This document shows positions 32,536 to 49,383 of a stretch of DNA of 64,000 nucleotides, in pieces; position 1 is the first letter of the stretch, and the number at the start of each line of letters is the position of its first letter. A program made the translations under genes and the position numbers. This DNA is from Roseovarius indicus (lineage in GTDB: Bacteria > Pseudomonadota > Alphaproteobacteria > Rhodobacterales > Rhodobacteraceae): contig NZ_CP031601.1 in assembly GCF_008728195.1 (NCBI RefSeq), positions 1 to 64,000 of the forward strand. Reading direction: 5' to 3'. The notes under the pieces are model-generated. The model was not told the origin of the DNA. It made no database searches and worked only from the letters and a program-made list of their open reading frames with translations.

Positions 32536-32540
32536 GTGTG

Positions 32541-33609: not shown

Positions 33610-36506
33610 TCATGGGTTTTCCATCATCCGCCTCCACCGATATTCACCTGTGAGGATAATATGTGCCCATCCGAGGGGCGAGATATGTGAGAGAAGATAT
33701 GCGGGTGTATCGAGCCCAGCATTTTGTCGCGCGGCGACCGCAAAACCGAGTTGCTTGGTGTTCCAATAGATGATGATGGCGGTGAGCAGGTTCAGCCCTG
33801 CGATGCGGAAATGCTGGCCCTCAGTTGTACGGTCGCGGATTTCGCCTTGGCGACCGATCCGCAGTGCGTTCTTCAGGGCATGATGTGCTTCTCCTTTGTT
33901 GAGGCCAATCTGTGCGCGGCGCTGCATATCGGTATCAAGTAGCCAATCAATGATAAACAGCGTCCGCTCGATACGTCCGATTTCACGAAGGGCAATGGCC
34001 AGATCATGTTGCCGTGGCCGTGCTGCCAGTTTCTTCAGAAGCTGGCTCGGTTGCATTCTCCCGGAGAGCATCGTCGCGATGCAGCGCAACACGTCCGGCC
34101 AGTTGGCGATAATCGTGTTTTCGCGGATGCGGTCACCGGCCAGGCCTTTTAGTTCGTTCGGGACCCCATGACGATCAAAGACATGCAGCCGCTTTGAAGG
34201 TAAGTCCTTGATGCGCGGGATGAACCGGTAGCCGAGCAACGAGGTGGCCGCAAAGACGAGGTCTGTGAAGCCGCCCGTATCTGCGTATTGTTCTTTGATC
34301 CGTTTGCCGCTCGGGTTCATTAGCAGACCGTCCAGAATGTACGGTGCCTCGTTCACTGTAGCTGGGATCACCTGTGTGGCGAAGGGGCCATATTGATCTG
34401 ATACATGGGTATAGGCTTTCAGGCCGGGCTCATGGCCGTACTTCGCATTGATCAGATTCATCGCCTCGCCCTGGCGTGTGGTGGGAAAGAACTGACCGTC
34501 ACTGGAAGCGGTTTCACCAGCACCCCAGTATTTTGCCATTGGCAACCACGCCTGCGCCTCGATCACCATAGCCAGTGCCCGATTGATGGCCTCACTTTCC
34601 ACGTGCCAGTTTGAGAGCCGGGCCAATTGCTTAAAGTTATGGGTACTGCTCGCCCCGGCCATTTTGCTGAGTCCAAGATTCAGACCCTCTGCGAGAACAA
34701 CATTCAGCATGCCAAGCCTGTCTTTGCACGGTGCCCCGGTACGCAGATGGGTGAAGGCGTCAATGAACCCTGTGTCATTGGCCACCTCCGTGAGCATATC
34801 TGTGATCCGCACTTCTGGCAGGCGACGATAGAGGTCCAGGATCAGGCTATCGGCTTCAGCGGGAACGTCAGCTTCAAGGCGTTCGACGCGCAATCGCCCA
34901 TCCTCGATGATCCCGCCTGGGAGGGCGCCGTTCCTGACTGCCTTGGCAAGCCTGTGCAGCCCGTCGTCCAGCCGTTGTTTTCGATCTGCAAGCCAGACTT
35001 CCGGCTTCAATGGCATCGACAATCCCATAGTCTGCGCGGCCTCGACCGGAACCAGAGCCTGTTTCAGGTCGCTGTAGCGGCGAGAATGAGCAAGCCAGAC
35101 ATCACCGGATCTGAAGGCCTCACGCAGATGGAACAGCACCGCGACAACCCAGAGACGGTCCCGGTTCGTTTCGGGGTCGCTGAGATGCCCTCGCCATTTT
35201 GATCGGGGCTGAAGAAATGGCGCAGAGCGGCTTGGAATATCTTGCCTGTCGCGGATCACATCGGCCGCCGCAAGCAAAGGCTGAGCCACACTGGCCCCTG
35301 TGATGTCCAATGTTGCCAGCATTCGGGGGCATAGAGCTTGAACCGATGATACCCCTGCTCGACATAAGCCAGTGCACCCGCCTTGACGGTCTTACTGAGT
35401 GACCTTGCTGTTGCAACGAGGTTTTCCAGAGCATCCCAGCCACAAGATGCATCCACGGCACCGGCGATAGCCACCTCATCTCCCTTGGCGATCAACAATG
35501 TCGTGCCCAGAGTCTCAAACCCGGCCAGGGTCGCCGCGATCTCCGATTGCGCCGCGGTAACACGGGCATCGCAAATCCTCTTTGCCTCCCGCCAGATTGA
35601 GCCAACGATCCGGTCATGTGTTTCGACAACGGTATCTGCGATGGCAGCCGACCACTCAACGACGCAGGTGGCAAGGATGGCCAGTCGTCGATCACTGGTG
35701 ATGTCCCGCAATCCATCCGTAAAGTAACGTTCCCCCTGGCGGCGAAGGCGTGTGACCCGATGTGCGGGAATGTCGTCCAGGATTGTTGGCGACAACGCGA
35801 TCCCCTGCAGGAATTCCAGCCGGTCGAGCTGGCGGTTGATATCGGCAGAGTTCTTGCCCACCTCGAATTGTCGCAACCAGATGAAGCGGCTGATCCGGCT
35901 ATCAGCGTCTTCATTGAGCAAACCGTTAAGTTTGGCTTTCATTTCGAGGTCGAGACGTGCCGCAATGCGAGCCTCGATCCGTTGTTCGGCCGCAACCAAT
36001 GCGTCAGCACAGTGTCGTTCTATGACCGACAGGCCGGGCAGGACAACCTGTCGCCTGCGGCATTCCTCCACAAACCCGCGAACCAAACCCTCACTCGATT
36101 GAGCCGCCTCGGCGTGCTGGTCCAACCACCTCTGCATTTTCTTGGCATGTTTGCCAGCAAACATCTTGTAACCGTACATCTTACGCAGTGAGCCGAGATG
36201 TTCTCGTCGTGTCTTCTCACGGGCGGCATATTGCAACAGGTCATCTGGTTTCAGTCCAATTTGAGCGGCTATGAACCGGGACACAGGTTCCGGTATAACT
36301 TCGCCAGCCTTCAGCAAACGGCCCGGAAACCGAAAGGCACAAAGCTGAAGCGCAAAGCCGATTTGGTTTTCTGGTCGCCGCCGTGTGCGGATATGTTCAA
36401 TGTCCTCATCATCCAGGGTGTAATGCCGCAGCAACGCCATCTCCTCTGTAGGGAGATCAAAAAGTGCCGCGCGTTGTCGCGCGGTCAGAACCGCTCGATG
36501 TGCCAT
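33610..36506 (-). pseudogene. tnpA: Tn3-family transposase, frameshifted
   Basis: Two overlapping frames (36506-35256 and 35322-33610) together encode one full-length Tn3 transposase of about 960 residues. The first frame has the N-terminal DNA-binding part (FALQLCAFRFPGRLL). The second has the DDE catalytic core (SSDGQFFPT, VSDQYGPF, YADTGGFTDLVFA with Asp, and EIRDRTTEGQHFRIAGLNLL with Glu). The join falls at a run of five G (35325-35329; five C on the coding strand); one extra base would restore YAPRMLATLDITGA. It is either a real inactivating deletion, a sequencing error in a homopolymer, or a recoding site. The product acts on the 38-bp ends. Confidence 0.88.
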
Positions 36507-36631
36507 CGGATTGTTCTTTCGTTAGGAGATGTGGTCTTTGAAAGTAGACATATTGAGACATCACGCGTGCCATGTCTTTTTCAATGTCTCAATATGGTTG
36601 TCGCATGAACCCTTAATATATTCGAGACCCC
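36507..36631. promoter_or_regulatory. Putative res site and divergent tnpA/tnpR promoters
   Basis: The AT-rich spacer between divergent tnpA and tnpR contains a perfect 13-bp inverted repeat, CATATTGAGACAT at 36549-36561 and its complement at 36584-36596, the kind of subsite bound by serine resolvases. In Tn3 elements the res site lies in this spacer. Confidence 0.7.
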
Positions 36632-37183
36632 ATGGCCAAAGTCGGATATGCCCGCGTCAGTTCAGTCGGACAATCTCTAAACGTGCAGCGTGAAAAACTG
36701 AGCGACTGTGACAAACTGTTCGAAGAAAAGCGCAGCGGCACCACCGATGCCCGCCCTCAGCTCAAGCAATGTCTGAATTATGTCCGTGAAGGCGACCAGC
36801 TGATTGTAACGCGCATCGACCGACTGGCCCGATCCACTTTGCACCTATGTCAGGTCGCGGAGACGCTGCGCGAAAAGGGCGTCGATCTTGTCGTCCTCGA
36901 CCAGAACATCGACACATCCGATGCAACTGGTCGTCTGTTGTTCAACATGCTGGGTGCTATCGGCCAATTCGAGACTGAGATCCGGGCCGAACGGCAAATG
37001 GACGGAATCAAGAAGGCGAAAGATCGCGGCGTTCAGTTCGGCAAACGGCCTGCGCTCACCAATGATCAGATCGCAGAGCTCCGCGAAAAACGCGCTCAAG
37101 GTAAGCTGATCAAAGACCTCATGGCTGAATACAGCCTCTCTAAGGCCACCATCTATCGCTATCTCACCGAAAACGCGGCCTGA
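36632..37183 (+). CDS. tnpR: Serine resolvase of the Tn3-family transposon
   Basis: A 183-residue resolvase/invertase. The nucleophile is Ser10 or Ser11 in GYARVSS; the catalytic domain also has the Arg pair in TRIDRLARS; a helix-turn-helix ends the protein (LIKDLMAEYSLSKATIYRYL). It resolves cointegrates at the res region lying immediately upstream. Transcribed away from tnpA, as in Tn21/Tn501-like layouts reversed. Confidence 0.93.
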   Translation: MAKVGYARVSSVGQSLNVQREKLSDCDKLFEEKRSGTTDARPQLKQCLNYVREGDQLIVTRIDRLARSTLHLCQVAETLREKGVDLVVLDQNIDTSDATGRLLFNMLGAIGQFETEIRAERQMDGIKKAKDRGVQFGKRPALTNDQIAELREKRAQGKLIKDLMAEYSLSKATIYRYLTENAA

Positions 37184-37209
37184 GCTCGACTACAGAAGCC
37201 CAATCCAGG

Positions 37210-37247
37210 CTTAACGCCCTATTCTGCACTCAGCCGGACTCGACCCC
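37210..37247 (-). repeat. Right 38-bp terminal inverted repeat
   Basis: Complement of the left end with one mismatch, followed by the target duplication ACAAC at 37248-37252. Confidence 0.95.
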
Positions 37248-37290
37248 ACAACAGGCGAAGTGGCGCTGGATTTGCACTCTGAAGCTAGAT

Positions 37291-37307
37291 TGCAAGCAGA
37301 ACTTGCA
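37291..37307. promoter_or_regulatory. Palindrome before the hydrogenase regulator gene
   Basis: TGCAAG-CAGAA-CTTGCA is a perfect interrupted inverted repeat 16 bases upstream of the regulator start. It could be an operator. The transposon end lies only 43 bases further upstream, so most of any original promoter has been displaced. Confidence 0.4.
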
Positions 37308-37322
37308 TAAATAGTTCTCTTT

Positions 37323-38828
37323 ATGCAAAGAATGTTTGCTGATACTGATCCGGCAATCATCAGTGGCAACGGAGGTCCAAGCACCTTGTCGAATATATCT
37401 ACGGTTCTTATCAAGTCCAAGGACAAGGCTTTGACCCTGTCCGCTTCCAGCGCTCTGAGCGAATTGGATGGGTATCGGCTGATCTTTTGCGAGGATGATA
37501 ACTCCGCAAAGAGCCGCCTTGACGAAGTGAACGTGGACCTCATTCTCTATGACGTCGATGAGGATGATTTTGGACCGGACAACGCGTTGGCGCGGTCTCG
37601 CTTGTCTCATACCGCGTGTTGGCGCATTGTTATTTGCGAAAAAAATGAAATGAGCTGCGGCGCGCAACTCTGCGAAGATACGGCGTCCTATTTGTATCTT
37701 GCCAAACCGGTGCAAGAGCAGCAGATCCGCATCGTCGTCAAGCGCGCCCTGGAACACGCCGAGCTGTCGCGCCGGCACCGGATACTGAGCAGAGAGCTCA
37801 AGCTGTCGCTGGATGACGAGATTTTCAACGACGAGGAAGGCGGATCGGTTCAGGGTGGCGTTTCACGCTTTGAAAGACTGGTCTATGCAAGCCCCAAGAT
37901 GGCCGAAGTTGTCGCCGAGGCGAAAGTCGCGGCCTCCACGGGCATGCCGGTCCTGATCCGAGGCGAGACGGGCACCGGCAAGGAGCTTTTGGCGCGCGCC
38001 ATTCACTTTAACTCGGATCGCGTGAATTCACCCATGCACAGCCAGAATTGCGGCGGTGTGTCTGACGATGCCTTGTATTCCGAGCTGTTTGGCCACATGC
38101 GTGGCGCCTTTCCGGGGGCGATTGCGGATCGGCTGGGCCTTTTTCGGGCGGCTGATGGGGGCACGGTGTTTCTGGACGAGGTGTCAGAAGTATCACCGCA
38201 TTTTCAGGTGGCCCTTTTACGCTTCCTGCAAGAGGGCGAAGTCAAACCACTTGGTTCAGACAAGACACTGTACAGCAACGTGCGGATCATCGCGGCATCC
38301 AACCGTTCAATTGAGGAGATGGTGGAAAAAGGCAGTTTCCGCCGCGATCTGTATTATCGTTTACGCGGGTTTCAACTGGAATTGCCACCGCTTCGCGACC
38401 GGACCGACGACATCCCGGTGCTGACACAGTTCTTTGTTGAGAAATATGCCGGTGTGGTTGGTCGCCGGGTATTGGGTGTCACATCTGACGTTCTGAAGCG
38501 GTTGGAGTATTACCCATTTCCGGGCAATGTCCGCGAGCTGGAAAGCGAAGTTCAGCGCATGGTCGCGGTTGCGGAACAAGGTGGATATGTTGCTCTACGA
38601 CATTTATCGGAAAAGATCGCGCGCACGCCAATCGAAAACGGCGAGGACGCAGCTTTCGTGCCATCCGGTGTAACGCTTAAAGACAAGGTCGAACATTTGG
38701 AGCAGGTCGTTTTGACCAAGGCGCTGGAGGCGTTTCATTGGAATCAAAGTAAGGTCGCGGAAGAATTGGGCTTGTCACGAGTCGGGCTGGCAAACAAGAT
38801 CAAGAGATACGGTCTGCGCAAAGGGTAA
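37323..38828 (+). CDS. HupR/HoxA-like response regulator (AAA+ activator)
   Basis: A 501-residue NtrC-family activator: degenerate receiver domain (residues about 25-145, candidate phosphoacceptor D77 in LILYDVDEDD, Lys of LAKPV), AAA+ domain (Walker A GETGTGKELLARAI, Walker B GGTVFLDEV) and a Fis-type helix-turn-helix at the end (NQSKVAEELGLSRVGLANKI). The loop that touches sigma-54 reads GAFPGA (261-266) where GAFTGA is normal, so sigma-54 contact may be lost. HupR of Rhodobacter capsulatus controls hydrogenase genes with the housekeeping sigma factor, which fits. Located at the head of the hydrogenase locus, it should control it; a partner kinase is absent. Confidence 0.88.
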   Translation: MQRMFADTDPAIISGNGGPSTLSNISTVLIKSKDKALTLSASSALSELDGYRLIFCEDDNSAKSRLDEVNVDLILYDVDEDDFGPDNALARSRLSHTACWRIVICEKNEMSCGAQLCEDTASYLYLAKPVQEQQIRIVVKRALEHAELSRRHRILSRELKLSLDDEIFNDEEGGSVQGGVSRFERLVYASPKMAEVVAEAKVAASTGMPVLIRGETGTGKELLARAIHFNSDRVNSPMHSQNCGGVSDDALYSELFGHMRGAFPGAIADRLGLFRAADGGTVFLDEVSEVSPHFQVALLRFLQEGEVKPLGSDKTLYSNVRIIAASNRSIEEMVEKGSFRRDLYYRLRGFQLELPPLRDRTDDIPVLTQFFVEKYAGVVGRRVLGVTSDVLKRLEYYPFPGNVRELESEVQRMVAVAEQGGYVALRHLSEKIARTPIENGEDAAFVPSGVTLKDKVEHLEQVVLTKALEAFHWNQSKVAEELGLSRVGLANKIKRYGLRKG

Positions 38829-38831
38829 GAC

Positions 38832-39056
38832 ATGGACGATGACGCGCCTGCCACGAAAGTCATTGGTTTCCCCTATGCCCGATCCGGACTGGCCAAGACC
38901 CGGTCCAAGCCGCGCAATCTGGGCCTGACCGCCATGTCAAAGGCCGTTGCTCCTTCGGGCACGGGCGCCAGGGGCCATTGGTGCAAGAGCTGCAAGGGGA
39001 TCTGGTACAGCTACTTCGGAGAGGCCGAATGCCCGGCTTGCGGGCGACGGGGCTAA
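38832..39056 (+). CDS. Small zinc-ribbon protein of the hydrogenase locus
   Basis: A 74-residue protein with a basic N-terminal half and a C-terminal zinc ribbon: WCKSCKGIWYSYFGEAECPAC, that is Cys-x2-Cys-x12-Cys-x2-Cys. This is the same Cys spacing as the zinc domain of HypA, which is missing from the HypA encoded at 52598. It starts 3 bases after the regulator stop. It may supply the zinc module to the maturation machinery in trans; alternatively it is an ordinary rubredoxin-like or RNA-binding ribbon. Confidence 0.7.
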   Translation: MDDDAPATKVIGFPYARSGLAKTRSKPRNLGLTAMSKAVAPSGTGARGHWCKSCKGIWYSYFGEAECPACGRRG

Positions 39057-39288
39057 GCCCTGTCAGCTGTCAGCCAAGTTTACATTCCCCCATGGCAACT
39101 TAGTTTTCAGTTTACACTTTGTTACCAGAAATCGCCGCGCTGACCGCTAGTGTTGATTTGCTCGACTGTGCGCAACGGTACACACTTCCACCATAAATGC
39201 CGCGACTTTCGCAGGGTCGACAAGCAACAAGCCTGGCTCTGAGGCGAGGATGTCGCGGCAGGAATGATAGTCTTTGGGAGGAAGAAAA
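39057..39288. promoter_or_regulatory. Upstream region of the hydrogenase structural genes
   Basis: This 232-bp spacer should hold the structural-gene promoter. No convincing sigma-54 element (TGGCAC-N5-TTGC) was found. It contains a short direct repeat TGTCAGC-TGTCAGC (39061-39074) and an interrupted inverted repeat TTGC/GCAA (39157-39175). None is conclusive. Confidence 0.35.
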
Positions 39289-40251
39289 ATGGCAAACCTG
39301 TTGTGGCTTCAGGGGGGCGCGTGTTCCGGCAACACGATGTCTTTCCTGAATGCAGAGGAACCAAGCGCATGTGATCTGGTCACTGACTTTGGGATCAACG
39401 TCCTTTGGCAACCCTCCCTCGGGCTTGAACTGGGCGATCAGGTCAAAGCGATCGTCGAGAAGTGTATTTCTGGCGAGATCAAGCTGGACATCTTTGTCTT
39501 CGAAGGCACCGTCATCAATGCGCCGGACGGCACCGGCGAATGGAACCGGTTCTGCGGGCGCCCGATGAAGGAGTGGGTGAAAGAGCTGTCAGCGGTTGCT
39601 GATTTTGTCGTGGCGATCGGCGATTGCGCGACCTATGGCGGCATTCCGGCGACGGCGCCGAACCCGTCCGACAGCGTCGGCCTGCAGTTTCTCAAGCGCG
39701 ACAAGGGCGGCGCACTGGGTGAAGGTTTTGCCGCTAAATCCGGATTGCCTGTCATCAATATTCCGGGTTGTCCGGCACACCCTGACTGGGTAACGCAGAT
39801 TCTGGTGGCGGTTGCCACGGGTCGGGCCGGTGATCTGACGCTGGATGAATTCCATCGCCCCAAAACGTTCTTTTCCTCTTTCACGCAGACCGGGTGCACG
39901 CGCAACATGCATTTTGCCTACAAGGTGTCGACCACGGCGTTCGGCCAGCGCAAGGGGTGCCTGTTCTACGATCTGGGGTGTCGTGGTCCTATGACTCACA
40001 GCCCCTGCAATCGCATCCTGTGGAACCGCCATTCGTCAAAAACCCGTGCGGGTATGCCCTGCCTGGGCTGTACCGAACCGGAGTTCCCGTTCTTTGATCT
40101 GGCGCCGGGAACGGTCTTCAAGACACAAACCGTCATGGGTGTACCCAAGGACATGCCCGAGGGCGTGGACAAGAAGGGTTACATCAAGCTCACCTCCGCC
40201 GCCAAAGGCGCGGCACCTGCGTGGGCAGAGGAAGATATCTTCGTAGTCTAA
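39289..40251 (+). CDS. hupS: [NiFe]-hydrogenase small subunit (group 2a-like)
   Basis: A 320-residue iron-sulfur subunit without a Tat signal, as in cytoplasm-facing group 2 enzymes. Proximal cluster ligands: C12, C113, C161, but the second Cys of the usual CxxC is Asn15 (CSGN). At the distal cluster the usual His is Gln200 (QTGC, C203), with C224 and C231. Medial ligands C240, C258, C261. These losses predict [3Fe-4S] at proximal and distal sites as well as medial, the pattern reported for the mycobacterial high-affinity hydrogenase Huc. KGCLFYDLGCRGPMTHSPC has six residues between C224 and C231 where most enzymes have five. Start at 39289 follows GGGAGGAAG. Confidence 0.93.
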   Translation: MANLLWLQGGACSGNTMSFLNAEEPSACDLVTDFGINVLWQPSLGLELGDQVKAIVEKCISGEIKLDIFVFEGTVINAPDGTGEWNRFCGRPMKEWVKELSAVADFVVAIGDCATYGGIPATAPNPSDSVGLQFLKRDKGGALGEGFAAKSGLPVINIPGCPAHPDWVTQILVAVATGRAGDLTLDEFHRPKTFFSSFTQTGCTRNMHFAYKVSTTAFGQRKGCLFYDLGCRGPMTHSPCNRILWNRHSSKTRAGMPCLGCTEPEFPFFDLAPGTVFKTQTVMGVPKDMPEGVDKKGYIKLTSAAKGAAPAWAEEDIFVV

Positions 40252-40273
40252 CTGCGAATTGGGAGAGAGAATT

Positions 40274-41875
40274 ATGTCTGCAGCAGTAGAAACACTCGAC
40301 ATTTCGCCGGTTGGCCGCGTCGAAGGCGATCTGGATGTCCGGGTCGATATTGAAAACGGCGTTGTCACCAACGCCTGGACCCACGCGGAGATGTTTCGCG
40401 GGTTCGAAGTCATCCTGAAAGACAAGGACCCCCAAGCCGGTCTGGTCGTCACGCCGCGCGCCTGCGGGATCTGCGGTGCGTCACACCTGACCTGCGCAGC
40501 CTGGGCACTCGATACTGCCTGGGGCACCACCGTGCCGCGCAACGCCATTCTGGCGCGCAACCTCGGCCAGATCGTGGAATCTCTGCAGTCCCTGCCGCGC
40601 CACCATTATGGGTTGTGGATGATCGACTATACCAACGAAAACTACGCGATGAGCCCGTTTTACGAGGAAGCCGTCAAACGCTATTCCCCGTTTACCGGCA
40701 CATCCTATGAAGCAGGCGTGACAATCTCCGGCCGTCCGGTCGAGATTTACGCGCTGTTGGGCGGTCAGTGGCCGCATTCGTCCTTCATGGTGCCTGGCGG
40801 CGTCATGTGTTCTCCGACACTTACGGATATCACCCGCGCCTGGTCTATTCTGGAGCATTTCCGTCAGAACTGGATCGAGCCACTGTGGCTCGGCTGCTCA
40901 ATGGAGCGTTACGAAGAAATCCAGACCTTGGAGCAATTCGAGGCATGGCTGGACGAAAAGCCCGAGCACGCCAATTCTGATCTGGGCCTGTTCTGGCGCA
41001 TGTCCAAGGACATTGGCCTTGACCAGTACGGTAAAGGCCACGGCCGGTTCACCACATGGGGGTATCTGCCCCACGAGGACAAGTATCAGAACCCCACGAT
41101 TGATGGTCGCTCAGATGCGGTGATCATGAAATCGGGCATCTACGACGGTGCATCCGACACATTCAGCCCGATGGACCAGTCCTTTGTCCGCGAAGACACG
41201 CAGCACGCCTGGTACGACGAGGCGGCGGGTGCGGTCCACCCGTTCGACCGCACCACGAACCCAGTGAGCAAGAACCCCATCGACCCGGAGGGCAAGTATT
41301 CCTGGTCGACGGCCGTGTCGCATGCCGAAAGCGGTCGCCTCGAGGCCGGCCCGCTGGCGCGGCGTCTGGTGGCGGGCAATGACACGGGCCATGACTTCCA
41401 GCACAGCGACGGGTTGGTGCTGGATATGTACCGCAAGATGGGCGGTGCTTCGACGATGCTGCGCCACTTTGCGCGGATGCACGAGCTTTGCATTCTCTAT
41501 CGCGAAGCCGAACGCAATTTGCGCGAGTTCCAGTTGAACGACGAATGGTATATAAAGCCAACTGAAAAAGACGGACAGGGCTGGGGTGCGACCGAGGCGA
41601 TTCGCGGTGCGCTGTGCCATTGGATCGATGTACGCGACGGCAAGATCGCCAATTACCAGATCATCGCGCCGACGACATGGAATGTTGGGCCGCGTACATC
41701 TGACGGCGCCCGGGGGCCAATCGAAGAAGCGTTGATCGGCACGCCGATCAAGAACAGCGCGGATCCGGTCGAGGTCGGTCACGTTTGTCGATCCTATGAC
41801 AGTTGCCTTGTGTGTACTGTTCATGCGCATGATGCCAAATCCGGTGATGAACTGGCACGCTTCCGAACAGCCTGA
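40274..41875 (+). CDS. hupL: [NiFe]-hydrogenase large subunit (group 2a-like)
   Basis: A 533-residue catalytic subunit. Nickel ligands: C64 and C67 in RACGICGASH near the N-terminus and C511 and C514 in SYDSCLVCTVH near the C-terminus, followed by a 16-residue tail after His517 that the maturation protease should remove. The C-terminal motif is DSCLVC where the common form is DPCxxC. With the unusual small subunit and the neighbouring Rieske/NHL/TPR genes, this fits group 2a. It would oxidise H2, perhaps at trace concentrations. Starts 22 bases after hupS. Confidence 0.94.
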   Translation: MSAAVETLDISPVGRVEGDLDVRVDIENGVVTNAWTHAEMFRGFEVILKDKDPQAGLVVTPRACGICGASHLTCAAWALDTAWGTTVPRNAILARNLGQIVESLQSLPRHHYGLWMIDYTNENYAMSPFYEEAVKRYSPFTGTSYEAGVTISGRPVEIYALLGGQWPHSSFMVPGGVMCSPTLTDITRAWSILEHFRQNWIEPLWLGCSMERYEEIQTLEQFEAWLDEKPEHANSDLGLFWRMSKDIGLDQYGKGHGRFTTWGYLPHEDKYQNPTIDGRSDAVIMKSGIYDGASDTFSPMDQSFVREDTQHAWYDEAAGAVHPFDRTTNPVSKNPIDPEGKYSWSTAVSHAESGRLEAGPLARRLVAGNDTGHDFQHSDGLVLDMYRKMGGASTMLRHFARMHELCILYREAERNLREFQLNDEWYIKPTEKDGQGWGATEAIRGALCHWIDVRDGKIANYQIIAPTTWNVGPRTSDGARGPIEEALIGTPIKNSADPVEVGHVCRSYDSCLVCTVHAHDAKSGDELARFRTA

Positions 41876-41943
41876 TGTTTATGTTTGGCCGGCGGATCAA
41901 ATCTGCCGGCCAAACGACATCCGGCAATTAGGGAGGAAGCTGA

Positions 41944-42330
41944 ATGTCAGAAAATCCGGAAGCATCAATAACCCAAGCGCAGCGCCAGGCCTACTTGGAC
42001 AGATATGGCCTGACACCCGCCGAAGCGGGGCATGAAATGCTCCTCCAGATGATAGAGGACCATTTCGCGGAAGGACTGGAAACCAAGGTCGAGCCTTTTC
42101 CGGAAACGGATCGTGAATTCGGTGCGCTGCTTGACGAATTGCGGCCTCTGAGCGCGGATCAGCTGCGCGAAAAACTGGTGATCTCAGGCTGGCTTTTGCA
42201 GCCCTACGGCGAAGACGAGATGCGGTGCCAGGAATGTATGTACTACCTGGTGCACAAGCGCTGGTGCGACCTGCCAGAACTTGATCTCCCGGCAAAGCCG
42301 GAATGGTGGTGCCGTCTGTGGCGGATCTGA
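41944..42330 (+). CDS. HiPIP-like iron-sulfur protein A
   Basis: A 128-residue protein whose C-terminal 35 residues carry four Cys (C95, C98, C108, C123; C-x2-C-x9-C-x14-C) in a setting like a high-potential iron-sulfur protein: CQECMYYL, then a Cys followed by DLPEL, then PEWWCRLWRI. The N-terminal 90 residues are helical and contain no Cys. No export signal is seen, unlike ordinary HiPIPs. The next gene encodes a paralogue. I infer an electron carrier or cluster-bearing stalk for the hydrogenase; a structural role like the HucM scaffold is possible. Confidence 0.75.
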   Translation: MSENPEASITQAQRQAYLDRYGLTPAEAGHEMLLQMIEDHFAEGLETKVEPFPETDREFGALLDELRPLSADQLREKLVISGWLLQPYGEDEMRCQECMYYLVHKRWCDLPELDLPAKPEWWCRLWRI

Positions 42331-42343
42331 AAGGAGCGCTGAC

Positions 42344-42655
42344 ATGGATGATGACGAGACTCGCGCAACAATCGCCGAGATGCTGGCTTCGGGTCTGGAA
42401 ACCGAGGTCTGGCCACGGGCCGGAACCAGCGAAGAGGTCAATGAAATCGTGGCGCGCCTGCAGGTCGAGGCAGGTCAGGATCTGGAAAAGAAACTCGTCA
42501 TCGCCGGTTTCACCGATCACACGATCGAGGCTGACGAGATTGAGCAACCCTGCGAGACCTGCATGTACTACAAGGTCCATGCGAAATTCTGCGAATTGCC
42601 GGAACTGATGGTGCCGGTCGAACCGGAATGGTCCTGCCGCCTGTGGCGGATCTGA
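42344..42655 (+). CDS. HiPIP-like iron-sulfur protein B
   Basis: A 103-residue paralogue of the preceding protein: C70, C73, C83, C98 with identical spacing, sharing CMYY-VH-, CELPEL, PEW-CRLWRI. The helical N-terminal part is also related (LEKKLVIAG here, LREKLVISG there). A start at 42344 follows AAAGGAGCGCTGAC and lies 14 bases after the preceding stop. Its stop overlaps the protease start. Confidence 0.75.
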   Translation: MDDDETRATIAEMLASGLETEVWPRAGTSEEVNEIVARLQVEAGQDLEKKLVIAGFTDHTIEADEIEQPCETCMYYKVHAKFCELPELMVPVEPEWSCRLWRI

Positions 42656-43128
42656 TGCCGCTTGATGTTGTCGTCATCGGATGCGGCAACCCAAACCGAA
42701 GCGACGACGGCGTCGGTCCGCATCTCATCGCTCAAATGCGCGAAAACGGCGTGCCGGAGCACACTCGCATATTCGACGGCGGAACCGACGGGATGTCGGT
42801 CATGTACAGCGCACGCGGCGCCACGCATCTGATCATTGTCGATGCCCGGGTCCCCGAAGGGTCGCCGGGCACCATTTATGAGGTTCCTGGAGAGGTTCTG
42901 GAAGCACCGCCCAACAACAGCCTGAACCTGCATGATTTCAGGTGGGATCATGCGCTTTACGCAGGACGCCGTATCTATGGTGATGCGTTTCCCAAGACGA
43001 CATCGGTGCTGTTGATCGAGGCCGCGACGCTGGAGCTTGGGTTAGGCCTGAGCGACGAGGTTTCTCGCGCGGCGCGGACGGTTGAGTGCCGCATTCGGGA
43101 CCTGATCGATACGTGGTCGGAGGCATGA
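42655..43128 (+). CDS. hupD: Hydrogenase maturation protease
   Basis: A 157-residue nickel-dependent endopeptidase of the HyaD/HupD type: VIGCGNPNRSDDGVGPHLI (substrate-binding Asp), DGGTDGMSVM and LIIVDARVPEGSPG, then LHDFRWDHAL. It removes the C-terminal tail of the large subunit after nickel insertion. It overlaps both neighbours (1 and 4 bases). Confidence 0.92.
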   Translation: MPLDVVVIGCGNPNRSDDGVGPHLIAQMRENGVPEHTRIFDGGTDGMSVMYSARGATHLIIVDARVPEGSPGTIYEVPGEVLEAPPNNSLNLHDFRWDHALYAGRRIYGDAFPKTTSVLLIEAATLELGLGLSDEVSRAARTVECRIRDLIDTWSEA

Positions 43129-43445
43129 GCACGATCGCGATCAGGGATGGTGCGATCTATCTGCCTTGCGCCGTGGTGGACACCTATTTCCGCGGCATTG
43201 ATGCGGTCATCGTACTGATCCAACAGGATGAATTATTGGTGATGCCCGTGCATCAGGCAACCGCCGGAGGGTGCCTTTTGAAGGTCCGGAATGCTGCAGG
43301 TGATCGGGTGGTTCAGGCCCGTGATGTTTTCCAGGATCAAGACCTTCTGGACTTTGCAACCGACAGCCTGACCGTCGCGTGGCAGGCCAGCAAAGGGGCG
43401 CTTTGTGCAGAATTGAAGCCGGATCAGCGCGGCGAGGATGTGTAA
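43125..43445 (+). CDS. Hypothetical protein of the hydrogenase locus
   Basis: A 106-residue mixed alpha/beta protein (start MSTIAIRDG, ATGA overlap with the protease). No cofactor motif is evident apart from single Cys. I do not recognise the family. The coupling to hupD and position before the TPR gene suggest a hydrogenase-related role. Confidence 0.65.
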   Translation: MSTIAIRDGAIYLPCAVVDTYFRGIDAVIVLIQQDELLVMPVHQATAGGCLLKVRNAAGDRVVQARDVFQDQDLLDFATDSLTVAWQASKGALCAELKPDQRGEDV

Positions 43446-43549
43446 ACTAAGTTTTCTATAAACCAAGTAAGTTGACAGCGCCCGCTTTGAGTGCTTTTCT
43501 CGGTCGAACACAGAAATCGAACCAGATTCGATTCGAGGGAGAAACCGGT

Positions 43550-44551
43550 TTGACGAATATCAGTCGTGCTCAGCAGCAGGTGCAGGCGGCCATGACCGCG
43601 GTCGAAACGGCTGCGGCGACGCAGGCCGAAAAGGCCGAGATGCTGATGGAAATCGCGATGGGGCTTCAGCAGAAACCCGAACGTGCCGAAGACATCTTTG
43701 CTGCCGTGGATCTCTACAAACTTGCCATGGATCTTGCGCCGGAAGGCGAAGTTCTGGGGGTCGCCCGCATTCGTGCGCGTATGGCCACAGCGCTGATGGC
43801 CGTGCCCGCCGAAGATGCGACGCAGCTAAAGGAAGCGAAATCCGAAATAGAGATCGCGCTTGCAACCCTGACTGCGGAAGGGTCGGACGCCGAAGTGGCC
43901 GAAGCCGAAATGAACCTTGGTCTGATCTGCCAGACACTTGCGGGCATGCATCTCTTGCCGATCCAACCTGCCATCAGCGCCTATCAGCGGTCGCTCAGGA
44001 CCTTCGACAAGACCAACTACCCCAAGGAATTCGCGGTCCTGCAAAGCAACCTGGCCACGGCGTTCCTGTCCATGCCGTTCACCGACCAGTCCGGGAAGAT
44101 GCGCGAGGCGCTGGCAGTGCAGGCCTTTGAAGAGGCGTTGACGGTCGTCAACCTGATAGACCATCCCAACGAATACGCGATGCTGCAAAACAACCTTGGC
44201 AACGCGCTGCAGTACGTGTCCTCGTCTCACCGGGTGGAAAACGGATATCGCGCTCTAGAGGCTTATGATGAGGCGCTCAAGGTGCGCACCATCCGCGACA
44301 TGCCCGAAGAATATGCCAACACCATCGCGAACAAAGCCAATTGCCTGTCGAACCTGCCGGACGATCCGCAAAATCCCGACGGCGGCAACTTTGGCAACCT
44401 GACCGAAGCGGTGCGTCTGCTGGAAGAAGCGCGCGGCGTATTCGCCAAGCGCGGGGCCGGCGAAAAGGCACAAGCAGTAAGCGAAGCCATTGCCGAACTG
44501 AACGCGGCCCTTGGCCCATCAACAATTCTGGAACGGAGCGGATTACAATGA
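43550..44551 (+). CDS. TPR-repeat protein of the hydrogenase locus
   Basis: A helical repeat protein of about 333 residues with tandem TPR-like units (for example FAVLQSNLATAFLSMP, YAMLQNNLGNALQYVS and YANTIANKANCLSNLP, each about 50 residues apart). A TTG start at 43550 follows GAGGGAGAAACC; the frame extends back to another TTG at 43472. No signal peptide. TPR proteins occur beside group 2a hydrogenases in Nitrospira and related loci and probably serve assembly or oligomerisation. Confidence 0.8.
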   Translation: MTNISRAQQQVQAAMTAVETAAATQAEKAEMLMEIAMGLQQKPERAEDIFAAVDLYKLAMDLAPEGEVLGVARIRARMATALMAVPAEDATQLKEAKSEIEIALATLTAEGSDAEVAEAEMNLGLICQTLAGMHLLPIQPAISAYQRSLRTFDKTNYPKEFAVLQSNLATAFLSMPFTDQSGKMREALAVQAFEEALTVVNLIDHPNEYAMLQNNLGNALQYVSSSHRVENGYRALEAYDEALKVRTIRDMPEEYANTIANKANCLSNLPDDPQNPDGGNFGNLTEAVRLLEEARGVFAKRGAGEKAQAVSEAIAELNAALGPSTILERSGLQ

Positions 44552-44567
44552 TGAATGGAGAATACAG

Positions 44568-44762
44568 TTGAGCGCTATAGTCGTAATTTTGGCCCTGGTC
44601 GCCGGCCTGGCCGCCGCCTTGGGTGCAGGGGCCTTGTCGGGTCTGCGCATCGGTAAAGATGCACTGGGCGCAGAGCTGGCCGCCTATATGGGCGCGCTTT
44701 ACGGCGGGCTTGCAGGTGGCGGCGCAGTTGTCGTGACCACGCTTGTTCTTTTGCTGATCTAG
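44568..44762 (+). CDS. Tiny two-helix membrane protein A
   Basis: A 64-residue protein from a TTG start with two hydrophobic segments: residues about 3-22 (IVVILALVAGLAAALGAGA) and about 43-63 (GLAGGGAVVVTTLVLLLI). The loop between them is Gly- and Ala-rich. It may anchor the hydrogenase, which lacks a membrane subunit of its own, or its Rieske partner. The start codon is uncertain. Confidence 0.6.
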   Translation: MSAIVVILALVAGLAAALGAGALSGLRIGKDALGAELAAYMGALYGGLAGGGAVVVTTLVLLLI

Positions 44763-44771
44763 GAGGTCGCC

Positions 44772-44993
44772 ATGCTGGGAATGGCCATGAATTCTGCAAA
44801 ACTGTTTTTTGCAGGCAAGCTTTTCAAAGACAACAAAACCGTGGTCCGACAGTTGATGATGGGGGCTGGCGCCGGCGTGATCGCCGGTATCGTCATCGGG
44901 TTGTTTGCACCGATCTGGGTGGCAGCCATCGCCGCAGGCGCTGTAAGCGGCGCTGTGCAGCCTGTGTTGTTCAAAGATCTGAAATACGCATAA
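44772..44993 (+). CDS. Tiny two-helix membrane protein B
   Basis: A 73-residue protein with a basic N-terminus (KLFFAGKLFKDNKTVVRQ) and two adjacent membrane segments (about 30-47 and 49-64, rich in Gly, Ala and Ile). It follows AGGAGGTCGCC, a strong ribosome-binding site. Unknown family; with its neighbour it probably forms a membrane attachment for the locus. Confidence 0.65.
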   Translation: MLGMAMNSAKLFFAGKLFKDNKTVVRQLMMGAGAGVIAGIVIGLFAPIWVAAIAAGAVSGAVQPVLFKDLKYA

Positions 44994-44996
44994 GCA

Positions 44997-45866
44997 ATGC
45001 CGGATGCCGCATCTCTTGAAGGCGAAGAGCCGACTCTGGATCGCCTGATCGGCGATCTGAAGGCGCTTGAAATGCTGGCAGACGGCTGGGATGAGGCGGC
45101 CCGCAACGGAGCCCATGCAAGGGCTGAAGCCGTAGATGCATTGAACAAGGAGGCGTTCCGACGGTTGATCGGAGCGCTTAAGGACAACCCAGAGTTTGGC
45201 AACGCCCTGAAAGAGGCGGCCCGGGATGAAGTGGTCTACGCCGTGTTGCGCCGCCACGGGATATTGCGGCCATCGCTCTACGAACGGGTCGAGGCGGCGC
45301 TGGAAACGGTGCGCCCGAGCCTGGTCAGCCATGGCGGCGATGCCGAGGTCGCTGCGGTCGAAGGCAAGCGCGCAGAAATTCGGTTTCTGGGTGCCTGTGA
45401 TGGGTGCCCGGCGTCACAACTGACGTTCTATGCGGGTGTCAAAAAGGCCATTCAGGATCAGGTTCCCGAGATCACCGAAGTGAAACAGGCCAAGGGTCTG
45501 GGCGGTGGCGGGTCGGACGGCGTTCAGTTCACGTCGCCCTTTGCAAATTACGGCGACAACGAGTGGACAACGGCGCTGCCGCTGGATGATCTGGCCGATG
45601 GCGAAACGCGCTTTATCGACATCGACACTCATTCAGTGATCATCACCCGCTTTGCCGACAAGGTAAGCTGCTTCAAGAATGCATGCGCCCATATGGGCCT
45701 TGAGATGACCCAAGGCGATATCATCGAGACGATCCTGTCCTGCCCGCATCACGGGTTTCGATATGCGCTTGAGAGTGGCGAGTGTTTGACTGCTCCCGAG
45801 GTGCAATTGCAGCCGCACGCGGTGCGGGTCAAAGGCCCCAATATCGAAGTGAGGATTATCGCGTGA
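44997..45866 (+). CDS. NifU C-domain / Rieske fusion protein
   Basis: A 289-residue fusion. After a helical N-terminal part (1-85), a NifU-like domain (about 90-160) carries ACDGCPAS, the CxxC that holds a labile cluster. The C-terminal Rieske domain (about 185-285) has CAHMG and CPHHGF, the Cys-His pairs of a [2Fe-2S] centre. Such Rieske/NifU proteins accompany group 2a hydrogenases and are candidates to receive electrons from the small subunit and pass them toward the respiratory chain. Its stop overlaps the GTG of the next gene. Confidence 0.9.
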   Translation: MPDAASLEGEEPTLDRLIGDLKALEMLADGWDEAARNGAHARAEAVDALNKEAFRRLIGALKDNPEFGNALKEAARDEVVYAVLRRHGILRPSLYERVEAALETVRPSLVSHGGDAEVAAVEGKRAEIRFLGACDGCPASQLTFYAGVKKAIQDQVPEITEVKQAKGLGGGGSDGVQFTSPFANYGDNEWTTALPLDDLADGETRFIDIDTHSVIITRFADKVSCFKNACAHMGLEMTQGDIIETILSCPHHGFRYALESGECLTAPEVQLQPHAVRVKGPNIEVRIIA

Positions 45867-47041
45867 AAGTCTCGCTGTCCCGCTCGTTCAGCCCGCAAAA
45901 GGCGCCCGGCACCATAACCCCCGGTGCGCCGTTGTTGGGTGGGCAGGGCGCCCGCGTCATTTTGGGCAGCGACGGCGGTTCACTTGTACAGGCGATCACG
46001 CCCGCGCCGCACCTGATGTTCGGGCCGCGCGGCGTGTGCCTGCATCCGGACGGCTCGCTTTGGGTGTCAGACACGGGGCATCACCGGGTGCTGGGATGGA
46101 AAACCGTCCCGACAAATGACGACACACCTGCCGATATTCTTTTGGGTCAGCCCGACTTTGGCCGCGAGGGCCGAAACGCCAAGGGCCCGGTGGCTGCGAA
46201 CACCGTGAATGTGCCGACCGGGATCGTTGCATTTCGGGGTGGGCTGGCCGTGGCCGACCCGTGGAACCACCGCGTGCTGATCTGGCGCGAAACGCCCACC
46301 GGTCCCGACCACGAGGCTGATATCATTCTTGGTCAGCCTGACGCCCACAGCGCACTGGCAAATTTGGGTCTGTCGCATGCGCGCGCTGATACGATGCACT
46401 GGCCTTACGGGGTCTCGGCGGATGGCAATCGGTTGATCGTATGCGACACCGGAAACCGCCGTGTGCTGATCTGGGACGATCCGCAAACCACGGGTCAACC
46501 GGCGGATCTGGTTCTGGGACAGCACGATTTCACCTGCCGGGATGAAAATGCGGGCGGGGCGGTTTCGGACGTATCGATGCGCTGGCCGCACATGGCCATC
46601 GTCTGGCAAGGCGGTCTGGCGGTGGCAGATGCCGGCAACAACCGGGTGATGATATGGGATGCGTTTCCCGGCCAGAACGGCACCCAATGCGACACGGTGC
46701 TGGGACAGGCGGATATGACCGCCTGCGACCACAATATGGCGTCGTATTATCCCACGTCACAAGCGATGAATATGCCCTATGCGCTGGCAACACTTGGGTC
46801 GACGCTGGTGGTGGCTGACACGGCCAATTCACGACTTCTGGGATTTGAGGATACCGGTATGGCGGCCCACGCCGACCGGCTGACGGCGCAGCCGGATTTT
46901 GCGGCCAAAGGCGACAACCGCTGGGGCATTGCCGAGCGCGATACGGTGTGCTGGCCCTATGGGCTGTCTGCTCTGGGCTCGACGGTGGCGGTGGCCGACA
47001 GCGGCAACAACCGCATTCTGATCTGGGACGCGGCGACATGA
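45863..47041 (+). CDS. NHL-repeat beta-propeller protein
   Basis: A 392-residue protein made of repeated units with the pattern (V/A)ADxxNxRVLIW or VSDTGHHRVLGW, about 45-60 residues apart (near 65, 130, 195, 255, 320, 375), that is an NHL-type six-bladed propeller. It starts at a GTG overlapping the previous stop (GTGA) and has no obvious signal peptide. NHL proteins are found in other group 2a hydrogenase loci; the role is unproven, perhaps a docking platform. Confidence 0.88.
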   Translation: MKVSLSRSFSPQKAPGTITPGAPLLGGQGARVILGSDGGSLVQAITPAPHLMFGPRGVCLHPDGSLWVSDTGHHRVLGWKTVPTNDDTPADILLGQPDFGREGRNAKGPVAANTVNVPTGIVAFRGGLAVADPWNHRVLIWRETPTGPDHEADIILGQPDAHSALANLGLSHARADTMHWPYGVSADGNRLIVCDTGNRRVLIWDDPQTTGQPADLVLGQHDFTCRDENAGGAVSDVSMRWPHMAIVWQGGLAVADAGNNRVMIWDAFPGQNGTQCDTVLGQADMTACDHNMASYYPTSQAMNMPYALATLGSTLVVADTANSRLLGFEDTGMAAHADRLTAQPDFAAKGDNRWGIAERDTVCWPYGLSALGSTVAVADSGNNRILIWDAAT

Positions 47042-49383
47042 CCGGTGCCCGCTTCACCGTTTCTGGTCAGGTTCAGGGCGTAGGCTTTCGCCCGACGGTC
47101 TGGCGGCTGGCGCATGAAATGGGCCTGACGGGCGATGTGAAAAACACCGGCGAAGGCGTAGTGATCCAGCTTTGGGGGGACCATGTCGCAACCTTTCCAG
47201 ACAGGCTGCACAGCGCACTGCCGCCGCTGGCGCGCATCGAACGGCTCGATGTCACACCCCTGACCGACCCAGCCCCTTGCGGATTTGAAATCACCGCATC
47301 GCAAGAGGGCGAGATGCGAGGCAATGTGACGCCAGATGCCGCAACCTGCGCCGATTGCCTGGAGGAAATCCGCAATCCGTTTGAGCGGCGCTATCGCTAT
47401 CCGTTTGCCAATTGCACCAATTGCGGGCCGCGCTTTTCGATTGTGCAGGCCGCTCCCTATGACCGCGCTAAAACAACCATGGCGCCGTTTGATTTCTGTC
47501 CACCTTGCGAGGCGGAATATTCCAACCCGGTCGACCGCCGCTTTCACGCGCAGCCGGTGGCCTGTGGCCGGTGCGGACCGAACATCTGGATCGAGAAACT
47601 TGGCAAGGGCGCGGTGAATCTCGAAGCGTTTTCAATGCTGGATGACGTGGATGCCACCGGCGGGATGATCATGAATGGTCACATCGTCGCAATCCGGGGT
47701 CTGGGCGGTGTGCATCTAGCTTGTGACGCCACCAACGCCGCGGCCGTGGCCGAATTGCGCAGGCGCAAATCGCGCACGGGCAAGGCCTTTGCCCTGATGG
47801 CCCGCGATCTGGATGTGGTGCGCGCGTATTGCGAGGTGTCGAAGATCGAGGCCGATCTTCTGTCGAGCCCGCAAGCACCTATCGTTCTGCTGAAGGCCAA
47901 GCCCAACGGTCTGCCAAGCGAGATCGCGCCGGGTCTGGATCGTCTTGGCGTAATGCTGCCCTATACGCCGTTCTATCACATGATCCTGCGGCGCATCGGG
48001 CGCCCGGTGATCATGACCAGCGGCAATCCTTCGGGTCAGCCGCAATGCATCGACAATCAGGAAACCCGCGACCGTCTTGCCGATATCGCAGATTTCGCCT
48101 GTCTTCATAACCGCGACATCGCCAACCGGATCGATGACAGTGTTGTGCGCGTCGATCTGGGCCGTCCGCGCGTGCTGCGCCGGGCGCGTGGATATGCGCC
48201 GCAGGGGCTTGAACTGCCAGCCGGGTTTTCCGACGCGCTTGAGGTTCTGGCGCTCGGTGCGGAACAGAAGAACACATTCTGCCTCGTCAAGGACGCCCGC
48301 GCCATCATGTCCCAGCACATGGGCGATCTGGAGGATGTGGCCACAAACGCGGATGTGACGCGCAATCTGGGTCTATACGAAAACCTCTTTGATCATGCTC
48401 CAGATATAATCGCTGTCGATCAGCATCCGCAATACCTGTCCACGCAGCGCGGGTTCCAGATGGCAGGCGACCGGCCTGTGATCCAGGTACAGCATCACCA
48501 CGCGCATATCGCCGCGTGCCTGGTCGAGAACAACCGGCCCCTGAGCGCAGAACACGTGCTAGGCATCGCGCTGGACGGCACAGGCCTGGGGGATGACGGC
48601 ACGATCTGGGGCGGTGAATTCCTGATCTGCGACTACCACGGGTATCGCCGGGTCGGCTGTCTGAAACCAGTTGCACTGCCCGGCGGTGTGGCCGCCGTGC
48701 GTGAGCCATGGCGCAATGCCTATGCGCATCTGATGGCCGAGATGGGCTGGGGCGAGTTTGCAATCAACTTTCCCGATCTGGAGGTCTTCAGCCGTATGCG
48801 GGACCTGCCTCGCGACACTTTGGATGCGATGATCAAGTCTGGAACGAATTCGCCCTTGGCGTCGTCCTGTGGCCGGCTGTTCGATGCCGCTGCCGCGATT
48901 GCAGGCATCGCTTGGGACCGGCAGAATTACGAGGGCGAAGCCGCGATCCTGTTCGAGGCCGCCCTTGATCCTGACGCGCTGAACGAGCCAGATGATCTGG
49001 CCTATCCGTTTTCAATACCGCTGATGGGCGGCAAGGGCATGCCCTATATCGAGCCGCTGGCCGTCTGGCGCGCCATGCTGGGCGATCTGGTTCTGCAGAC
49101 ACCCATTGGCACGATTTCGGCAAGGTTTCACCGGGGATTGGCCCGCGCCATTGTCGAAATGGCGGTGCGGCTGACCAAAGACACGGCCATCGACACCGTC
49201 GCCCTGTCGGGTGGCTGTTTTCAAAACGCGACGCTGTTCGCGCTGGTTCATCAAGGCTTGGAAGGAGCAGAGCTGACGGTTCTGAGCCATTCCGACTATC
49301 CGGCGAATGACGGCGGTATTTCACTGGGGCAAGCCGTGATTGCCCTGGCAAACACACAAGGGGAGGACGCAAAATGTGCCTAG
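47038..49383 (+). CDS. hypF: Carbamoyltransferase HypF
   Basis: A 781-residue maturation enzyme that makes the cyanide ligands of the active-site iron from carbamoyl phosphate, with HypE. Domains in order: acylphosphatase (VQGVGFRPTVWRLA), zinc-finger region (CADCLEEI, CTNCGPRFS, CPPCEAEY), YrdC-like nucleotide-binding domain (about 200-380) and Kae1-like carbamoyltransferase (HHHAHIAACLVEN; ALDGTGLGDDGTIWGGEF; LSGGCFQNATL). Overlaps the NHL gene by 4 bases and hypC by 10. Confidence 0.95.
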   Translation: MTGARFTVSGQVQGVGFRPTVWRLAHEMGLTGDVKNTGEGVVIQLWGDHVATFPDRLHSALPPLARIERLDVTPLTDPAPCGFEITASQEGEMRGNVTPDAATCADCLEEIRNPFERRYRYPFANCTNCGPRFSIVQAAPYDRAKTTMAPFDFCPPCEAEYSNPVDRRFHAQPVACGRCGPNIWIEKLGKGAVNLEAFSMLDDVDATGGMIMNGHIVAIRGLGGVHLACDATNAAAVAELRRRKSRTGKAFALMARDLDVVRAYCEVSKIEADLLSSPQAPIVLLKAKPNGLPSEIAPGLDRLGVMLPYTPFYHMILRRIGRPVIMTSGNPSGQPQCIDNQETRDRLADIADFACLHNRDIANRIDDSVVRVDLGRPRVLRRARGYAPQGLELPAGFSDALEVLALGAEQKNTFCLVKDARAIMSQHMGDLEDVATNADVTRNLGLYENLFDHAPDIIAVDQHPQYLSTQRGFQMAGDRPVIQVQHHHAHIAACLVENNRPLSAEHVLGIALDGTGLGDDGTIWGGEFLICDYHGYRRVGCLKPVALPGGVAAVREPWRNAYAHLMAEMGWGEFAINFPDLEVFSRMRDLPRDTLDAMIKSGTNSPLASSCGRLFDAAAAIAGIAWDRQNYEGEAAILFEAALDPDALNEPDDLAYPFSIPLMGGKGMPYIEPLAVWRAMLGDLVLQTPIGTISARFHRGLARAIVEMAVRLTKDTAIDTVALSGGCFQNATLFALVHQGLEGAELTVLSHSDYPANDGGISLGQAVIALANTQGEDAKCA

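Follow-up and report, generated by a model that had tools for sequence, protein, structure and literature searches.

The 64-kb stretch of DNA analyzed here (the window), with which contig C4 (144,735 bp) of a five-contig, 6.17-Mb genome begins, carries the structural genes of a hydrogenase that, by its sequence, is a group 2a (Huc-type) [NiFe]-hydrogenase and a new example of an already known kind of enzyme. On the plus strand, the small subunit HupS/HucS (320 aa) is encoded at 39289–40251 and the large subunit HupL/HucL (533 aa) at 40274–41875, and both open reading frames (ORFs) are open where an earlier note on this DNA had placed them. We regard it as probable that this cytoplasmic HupSL, together with its maturation set, is plasmid cargo of a Roseovarius-related marine bacterium and oxidizes H2 into aerobic respiration.

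Nickel motifs L1 (RxCGxC) and L2 (DxCxxCxxH), a cleavable C-terminal tail and a protease are expected of group 2a [NiFe]-hydrogenases. HupL (PF00374, 1.9e-76) contains RACGIC at residues 62–67 and DSCLVCTVH ending at residue 517, the last His being followed by a tail of 16 residues; with the maturation protease of the operon, all the expected elements are present. The best match in the PDB for both subunits is Huc of Mycobacterium smegmatis (E = 6.6e-158 for HupS and 1.8e-178 for HupL). HupL shares 84% identity with its counterpart in Sphingopyxis alaskensis, 77% with that on a Bradyrhizobium plasmid, 70% with that of the cyanobacterium Calothrix and 53–55% with those on Mycobacterium intracellulare, Thermus, Sulfobacillus, Hymenobacter and Runella plasmids (HucM-type and Bacteroidota enzymes, n = 5), while the identity is 33% to HoxC (group 2b), 26% to HoxG (group 1d) and 26% to the actinobacterial-type enzyme of pHG1, which we take to be group 1h. 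In a tree of 69 rows, the window enzyme belonged to an alpha/gamma clade of 43 rows (support 99; one of these comes from a metagenome-assembled genome, MAG, labeled Acidobacteriota), which adjoins 18 cyanobacterial rows (support 88) within the 66 group 2a rows; the split between group 2a and the outgroup has a support of 92, with very long outgroup branches and with references of groups 2e and 2f left out. The earlier note had called the enzyme group 2a-like, and the HupL phylogeny and the identities agree in placing it with 2a, apart from 1d, 1h and 2b. The window genome has no other [NiFe]-hydrogenase.

With residues numbered from the ATG at 39289, HupS has C12-S-G-N15 and Q200-T-G-C203, and N15 and Q200 align to the same letters in HucS, while the corresponding residues in the small subunits of the Cupriavidus group 1d and 2b enzymes are Cys and His. 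The replacement of a proximal Cys by Asn15 and of a distal His by Gln200, as first read from the letters, is therefore confirmed. A ligand change specific to this plasmid was considered and rejected, because the Asn/Gln pattern is found across group 2a: column 15 is Asn in 41 of the 42 alpha/gamma rows (one gap) and column 200 is Gln in 42/42; both ligands also occur in the HucM-type (3/3) and Bacteroidota (2/2) enzymes; and among 15 cyanobacterial rows there are 11 Asn and 4 Asp at column 15 and 14 Gln and 1 Glu at column 200 (rows of HupS/HupL with E above 1e-100 excluded, each near-identical row counted). The proposal that these ligands mark an oxidizer of atmospheric H2 is not supported, since the same letters prevail throughout the group, most cyanobacterial enzymes included. 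For HucS, density maps and electron paramagnetic resonance are reported to show three [3Fe-4S] clusters (PMC10017518). The same three clusters, which the earlier note had predicted for HupS, are suggested by the match of its ligands to those of HucS, and for this clade they stay a prediction by homology. The menaquinone contacts named in HucS, the backbone of Lys212, Tyr229 and Tyr301 (PMC10017518), align with Lys212, Tyr227 and Tyr298 of the window HupS. Tyr is found at both positions in 62/62 group 2a rows, with Lys in 58 and Arg in 4 (cyanobacteria) at the remaining one; given this conservation, the quinone site is a group-wide trait, and both it and the cluster wiring are, as far as aligned residues tell, properties of group 2a.

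Copies of the operon were sought by tblastn over the PLSDB plasmids and by scanning a genome collection of 84,980 species. HupL identical at 533/533 residues was found in Octadecabacter sp. SW4 (plasmid pow41), Nioella nitratireducens SSW136, an Aestuariivita MAG, Thiosulfatihalobacter marinus GL-11-2 and Brevirhabdus pacifica DSM 27767; the genome scan gave 50 loci, with HupL 100% identical in four and 98% in the next best. Over 16,561 bp, the six copies in six genera differ pairwise by 0–5 substitutions, plus two indels (a 12-bp deletion, a multiple of three, in the small gene tm1 of Thiosulfatihalobacter and a 1-bp indel in Octadecabacter), and 2 of the 15 pairs (window/Aestuariivita MAG and Nioella/Brevirhabdus) show no difference at all. 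Because the island copies are so close while the rpoB regions of the same six genomes are 79.6–85.1% identical (5.6–7.1 kb aligned), the 16.6-kb island seems to have passed between the six genera very recently, which gives transferability a stronger footing than it had in the earlier note. The open-access literature (without supplements) yielded no earlier report of a near-clonal copy across genera, and nothing that combines a plasmid hydrogenase, Rhodobacteraceae and atmospheric hydrogen. Older copies exist as well: hupSL DNA at 78–84% identity is found in three other genomes rated as the same genus, and Seohaeicola matches at 88% over 14.6 kb. Among 394 family-level genomes there were 48 matches at E ≤ 1e-60, seven of them at least 87% identical (the window included, one partial) and 41 at 35–38%, and among 398 Pseudomonadota genomes four matches at E ≤ 1e-150, the window genome being one. 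In PLSDB, HupL at least 60% identical occurs in 11 records, of which pow41 is the only one from Rhodobacterales.

The window contig is probably a conjugative plasmid of the RepABC type. The plasmid location that had been assumed is upheld by RepC at 1–1185 on the plus strand (PF03428, 3.2e-58; PF11800, 5.2e-37) and by DNA at 84–104 kb of contig C4 that matches type IV secretion genes of other plasmids, and the assumed Rhodobacterales host by three relatives, rated as the same genus, whose loci match Roseovarius sp. A-2, R. lutimaris and Roseovarius SP300 without a difference over ~6.7 kb, which makes the host a Roseovarius in that classification. The complete plasmid pow41 is typed as conjugative (MOBP, MPF_T). 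The near-clonal hydrogenase segment that it shares with the window covers 37253–54811, with three differences between 37247 and 54648 and a fall in identity from 54812, and occupies a cargo slot between a PrlF/YhaV toxin-antitoxin pair and a strawberry-notch gene; the same slot holds different cargo in two other conjugative plasmids. The left flank is on the contig in four carriers (window, pow41, Thiosulfatihalobacter and Nioella), and in all of them the operon comes after the same site. Compared with the window, the 6 kb to its left show 99.8% identity in Nioella, 97% in pow41 and 94% in Thiosulfatihalobacter, with 87–97% further left; on the right, pow41 falls to 92% from 54812, and Nioella, Brevirhabdus and Thiosulfatihalobacter fall between 55000 and 56000. 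The plasmid backbones of the carriers diverge by 0.2–13%, and the left backbone is common to 206 PLSDB records. From this divergence and from the other cargo in the same slot, we infer that the insert may have spread by conjugation together with homologous exchange within the shared flanks of related plasmids.

The membrane adapter HucM of the HucSLM complex was not found in the window genome. HucM was identified through the DUF1641 protein beside hucS on the M. intracellulare plasmid, which matches chain Q of 7uus (E = 2.9e-34), and its profile PF07849 (DUF1641) was detected in the Mycobacterium, Thermus and Sulfobacillus records (3/3) that served as positive controls. The same profile was found in 0/19 genomes with an alpha (16, the window genome included) or cyanobacterial (3) enzyme; the S. 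alaskensis plasmid gave no match to it either. The window operon encodes instead tm1 (44568–44762, plus strand), a small hydrophobic protein resembling asr0689/asr0690, for which inspection by eye and the description of the Nostoc proteins in PMC2408588 make two membrane helices likely, and tm2 (44787–44993, plus strand), a second small hydrophobic protein. Together with the four-Cys proteins described below, tm1 and tm2 are present in 39/39 alpha/gamma loci with full coverage (of 42), in counts that, for the first 50 named loci, considered only forward-strand ORFs and used profiles built from the same loci. Four further loci also have tm1, tm2 and the four-Cys proteins (4/4), and the HucM profile finds nothing there. 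The pair occurs in 10/18 cyanobacterial loci (in the other eight, the TPR and HucE genes were likewise not found in the stretch examined) and was not found in three HucM-type loci. By tblastn against plasmids, HucM matched four records and tm2 only pow41, the latter search being too insensitive, as it missed known relatives. We take the sampled HucM-bearing hosts to be menaquinone users and the tm1/tm2 hosts to be ubiquinone or plastoquinone users. As the HucM-tm1/tm2 split follows these presumed quinone types, we propose that tm1/tm2 would link the group 2a enzyme to the membrane quinone pool in place of HucM, as a coupling to high-potential quinones. HucM-less group 2a enzymes are not mentioned in the available portions of PMC10017518, PMC11018855 and PMC10792529, and the open-access literature gave no earlier description of a choice between HucM and tm1/tm2 and nothing on Huc paired with ubiquinone.

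Oxidation of atmospheric H2 by a plasmid-borne group 2a enzyme is already published for S. alaskensis RB2256, which consumed H2 to a sub-atmospheric level in mixotrophic use; in that 2023 report on marine H2 oxidation, such an enzyme was found in the one H2-consuming isolate of three (PMC10305171). The species had been listed in 2010 with a cyanobacterial-type enzyme (PMC2974642), and group 2a enzymes are reported from 171 genera in 13 phyla, Alphaproteobacteria included (PMC7784904). S. alaskensis (hucL Sala_3198) resembles the window in its plasmid location, its gene order from regulator to HypB, its 80-aa HypA and its subunits (90% identity for HupS and 84% for HupL), but its operon includes one more gene, for a SIS-domain protein, between hypC and hypD, and its plasmid is a mobilizable (MOBQ) one of 28.5 kb, compared with a RepC plasmid with putative transfer genes for the window contig. 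A high H2 affinity of the window enzyme is suggested by this near relative, not by its ligands. Of the transferable atmospheric H2 oxidation that the earlier note envisaged, the transferability stands on the near-identical copies, the ligand argument is weaker than was put forward, and the affinity leans on kinship to S. alaskensis.

Huc of M. smegmatis (HucSLM; PDB 7utd and 7uus) shares with the window the HupSL family, the Asn/Gln ligands and the quinone-site residues, and the Huc-type locus on the M. intracellulare plasmid shares HucE, TPR-like and NHL genes; the window differs in that HucM (DUF1641) was not found and that tm1/tm2, two four-Cys proteins and a zinc-ribbon ORF are present. 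Its host is presumably a user of ubiquinone, whereas we assume menaquinone for the Huc host. The extended hyp operon of Nostoc (asr0689-alr0693) also encodes two 2-helix membrane proteins and TPR, NifU-like and NHL proteins along with hyp genes (PMC2408588). Cyanobacterial HupSL is nevertheless different in being tied to nitrogen fixation, in having Asp15 in 4/15 rows and in that no four-Cys proteins were found in the stretches searched. Ten of the cyanobacterial hupL matches start only at codon 164/165 (G697, G625, G709, G674, G680, G678, G684, G654, G648 and G693), which presumably fits the excision element known to lie within hupL.

In the mechanism that we propose, HupL would split H2 in the cytoplasm, and the electrons would cross three [3Fe-4S] clusters in HupS, by analogy with Huc, to a quinone bound at the Lys212/Tyr227/Tyr298 site, which would feed aerobic respiration and supplement heterotrophic growth. 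HucE and the Hyp set would serve maturation and activity, the tm1/tm2 pair, in the place of HucM, may bring the enzyme to the membrane and to ubiquinone, and the unit would move by conjugation and homologous exchange between related plasmids. A wider proposal is more tentative, and we rather doubt than assert it as a whole: that a trace-H2 module is sweeping marine Rhodobacterales on exchangeable conjugative plasmids and that it also represents a second Huc-type architecture, in which tm1/tm2 rather than a HucM stalk would couple the enzyme to ubiquinone or plastoquinone instead of menaquinone.

Other explanations of the operon were weighed. That the enzyme recycles nitrogenase-derived H2, as its cyanobacterial counterparts do, might be expected from the shared subgroup, from the mostly identical ligands of cyanobacterial HupS and from the tpr-tm1-tm2-hucE-nhl accessory genes common to cyanobacterial loci. 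This was rejected as highly improbable, since nifD was not found above the cut-off in any of the six island-bearing genomes, while a cyanobacterial control genome matched at 3.4e-243; the weak matches under the cut-off in the window genome (4.7e-7) and the Aestuariivita MAG (2e-9) are presumably bacteriochlorophyll reductase genes. An enzyme for growth on high H2 (vent, sediment or bloom), with an affinity too low for air, is unlikely: RuBisCO in Brevirhabdus makes lithoautotrophy possible in that carrier, but no RuBisCO match was found in the other five, and the nearest tested relative, S. alaskensis, with nearly the same operon, reaches sub-atmospheric H2 (PMC10305171). As nifD is not above the cut-off in the six carriers and RuBisCO is found only in Brevirhabdus, mixotrophic use, as reported for S. 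alaskensis (PMC10305171), is the likely physiology.

The operon could also be a silent passenger, intact but unused on a successful plasmid, which would fit its rarity and its place in a variable cargo slot: the left backbone is widespread in PLSDB, yet pow41 is the sole Rhodobacterales plasmid with a close HupL there. The operon genes are nevertheless open, and HupL is unchanged in six genera on divergent backbones; because a very recent spread would also account for intact genes, their intactness counts weakly here, and we hold a silent passenger to be improbable to about the same degree as growth on high H2. The least probable explanation is that the copies reflect cross-contamination between assemblies. 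Their extreme identity, with two pairs free of differences, and the short contigs of two carriers, one a MAG, would speak for it; however, pow41 is a complete plasmid, the island is contiguous with mutually different backbones in the four carriers with a left flank, the right side of Brevirhabdus departs from that of the window, and the indels differ between copies.

Some observations weigh against an atmospheric H2 oxidizer that is coupled through tm1/tm2 and passed between genera. The transfer between six genera is deduced from identity. Cyanobacterial enzymes, which are tied to nitrogen fixation (PMC2974642), have the same ligands and another reported role. Two marine isolates with group 1l hydrogenases consumed no H2 under test (PMC10305171), so that the presence of genes is no proof of their use. 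Two Bacteroidota loci gave neither HucM nor tm1/tm2, and tm1/tm2 are therefore not the sole alternative to HucM. A Sulfolobales homologue shares just 18% identity with HucM (PMC11018855), and given such divergence, absence by profile is no proof and a HucM may be missed. The pair asr0689/asr0690 of Nostoc was described as "unknown protein, 2 transmembrane regions," and the authors suggested that it acts with its neighbors in the maturation of HupS, not in coupling (PMC2408588). Finally, no −24/−12 site was found at threshold upstream of hupS, which leaves its control by the adjacent regulator unproved. The only such site in 37200–39300 (one strand scanned) is at 37261, ahead of the regulator, and a sigma-54 promoter for hupS was rejected on this ground, 20 such sites being found in the window on both strands.

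HupSL belongs to a tight plus-strand operon (37323–53670) that runs from a sigma-54 regulator through HypB and is complete for a hydrogenase and its maturation. The regulator (37323–38828) is of the NtrC family, with PF00158 (2e-59) and a Fis-type helix-turn-helix. Between it and hupS lies a zinc-ribbon-like ORF of 74 aa (38832–39056; GHWCxxCxGIWY...CPxCG), which has no Pfam or NCBIfam match and is missing from the gene tables that PLSDB gives for pow41 and S. alaskensis; it is present in 39/42 alpha/gamma loci (with a weak match in L019 and none in L011, L034 and L046). Downstream of hupL are four-Cys protein 1 (41944–42330; CxxCMYYxVHxxxCxLPEL...WxCRLWRI), whose structural model is of low confidence (pLDDT 46.8), and its paralogue, four-Cys protein 2 (42281–42655, start probably 42344). 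The family is found in 39/39 fully covered alpha/gamma loci and was not found in the searched stretches of HucM-type, Bacteroidota and cyanobacterial loci; from its alignment A2, the wrong reference row L008:12074-12379 of A1 was removed, and the choice of rows differs somewhat. The maturation protease (42628–43128; TIGR00072, 4.8e-36) is followed by a conserved 110-aa protein (43113–43445; model pLDDT 86.6), for which a fold search of the PDB gave no match at E ≤ 0.001, and by a tetratricopeptide (TPR)-like protein (43472–44551), which has no Pfam match of its own and whose homologues in the Thermus and Sulfobacillus loci carry a TPR annotation.

Beyond tm1 and tm2 are HucE, with NifU-like and Rieske domains (44997–45866; PF01106, 6.8e-21; PF00355, 5.3e-13), and an NHL-repeat protein (45863–47041; PF01436, 9e-25). 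A group 2a operon was described with hucE and an NHL protein (PMC7784904), and both genes are present here; HucE is reported to be required for Huc activity in M. smegmatis (PMC6883350). The operon continues with HypF (47026–49383; TIGR00143, 7.5e-227), HypC (49374–49667; TIGR00074, 6.6e-23), HypD (49664–50803; TIGR00075, 7.9e-149), HypE (50800–51846; TIGR02124, 5.2e-129), a NicO-like probable nickel transporter (51846–52598; PF03824, 2.3e-05; HflD in the pow41 record), HypA (52598–52840; PF01155, 1.6e-11) and HypB with a His-rich N-terminal part (52840–53670; TIGR00073, 1.6e-82). The hydrogenase does have maturation and nickel genes of its own, as had been noted, with the transporter match under the Pfam cut-off. 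HypA (80 aa) is without the usual C-terminal zinc ribbon, covers positions 1–64 of the 112 of PF01155 and matches the NCBIfam hypA model below the cut-off; it is also 80 aa in S. alaskensis and Novosphingobium and full-length in the Bradyrhizobium locus, which lies on the deepest alpha/gamma branch of the tree. A HypA split into the 80-aa protein and the zinc-ribbon ORF is not supported, as Bradyrhizobium has the ORF beside a full-length HypA.

Immediately left of the hydrogenase segment, a Tn3-family transposon occupies 28711–37247 (8537 bp, with 38-bp inverted repeats and a 5-bp target duplication; the site is empty in pow41). Its cargo consists of a phosphite/phosphonate ABC transporter, a LysR regulator and a D-2-hydroxyacid-dehydrogenase-family gene, which we take to be a PtxD candidate, and the transposon is perhaps a mobile phosphite-oxidation unit. 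The transposase region (33610–36506) consists of two overlapping ORFs and is annotated as one ORF in a full-length copy, 95.1% identical, on plasmid pTHAF35_c of Labrenzia sp. THAF35, which belongs to a different bacterial order. The hydrogenase as cargo of this transposon was rejected, since the transposon stops short of the operon, at 37247, and is missing from pow41, which does have the operon. In the pow41 record, an insertion-sequence-like stretch (34172–35220; IS630-like by eye, with an apparent TA duplication) lies beside the hydrogenase island. The left plasmid part matches other records at 95.7–95.8% identity over 74% of 1–24900 (12 records listed of 350), and 5714–13959 matches a ferredoxin-reductase-family protein, PepSY proteins and a heavy-metal P-type ATPase.

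If the sharing of the island among six genera is true, trace-gas respiration would be a trait that marine Rhodobacterales can exchange, and since there are related plasmid backbones that carry different cargo, they would offer a natural set-up for studying its fitness value. The split between HucM and tm1/tm2 turns the quinone access of the cyanobacterial and proteobacterial half of group 2a into a testable question.

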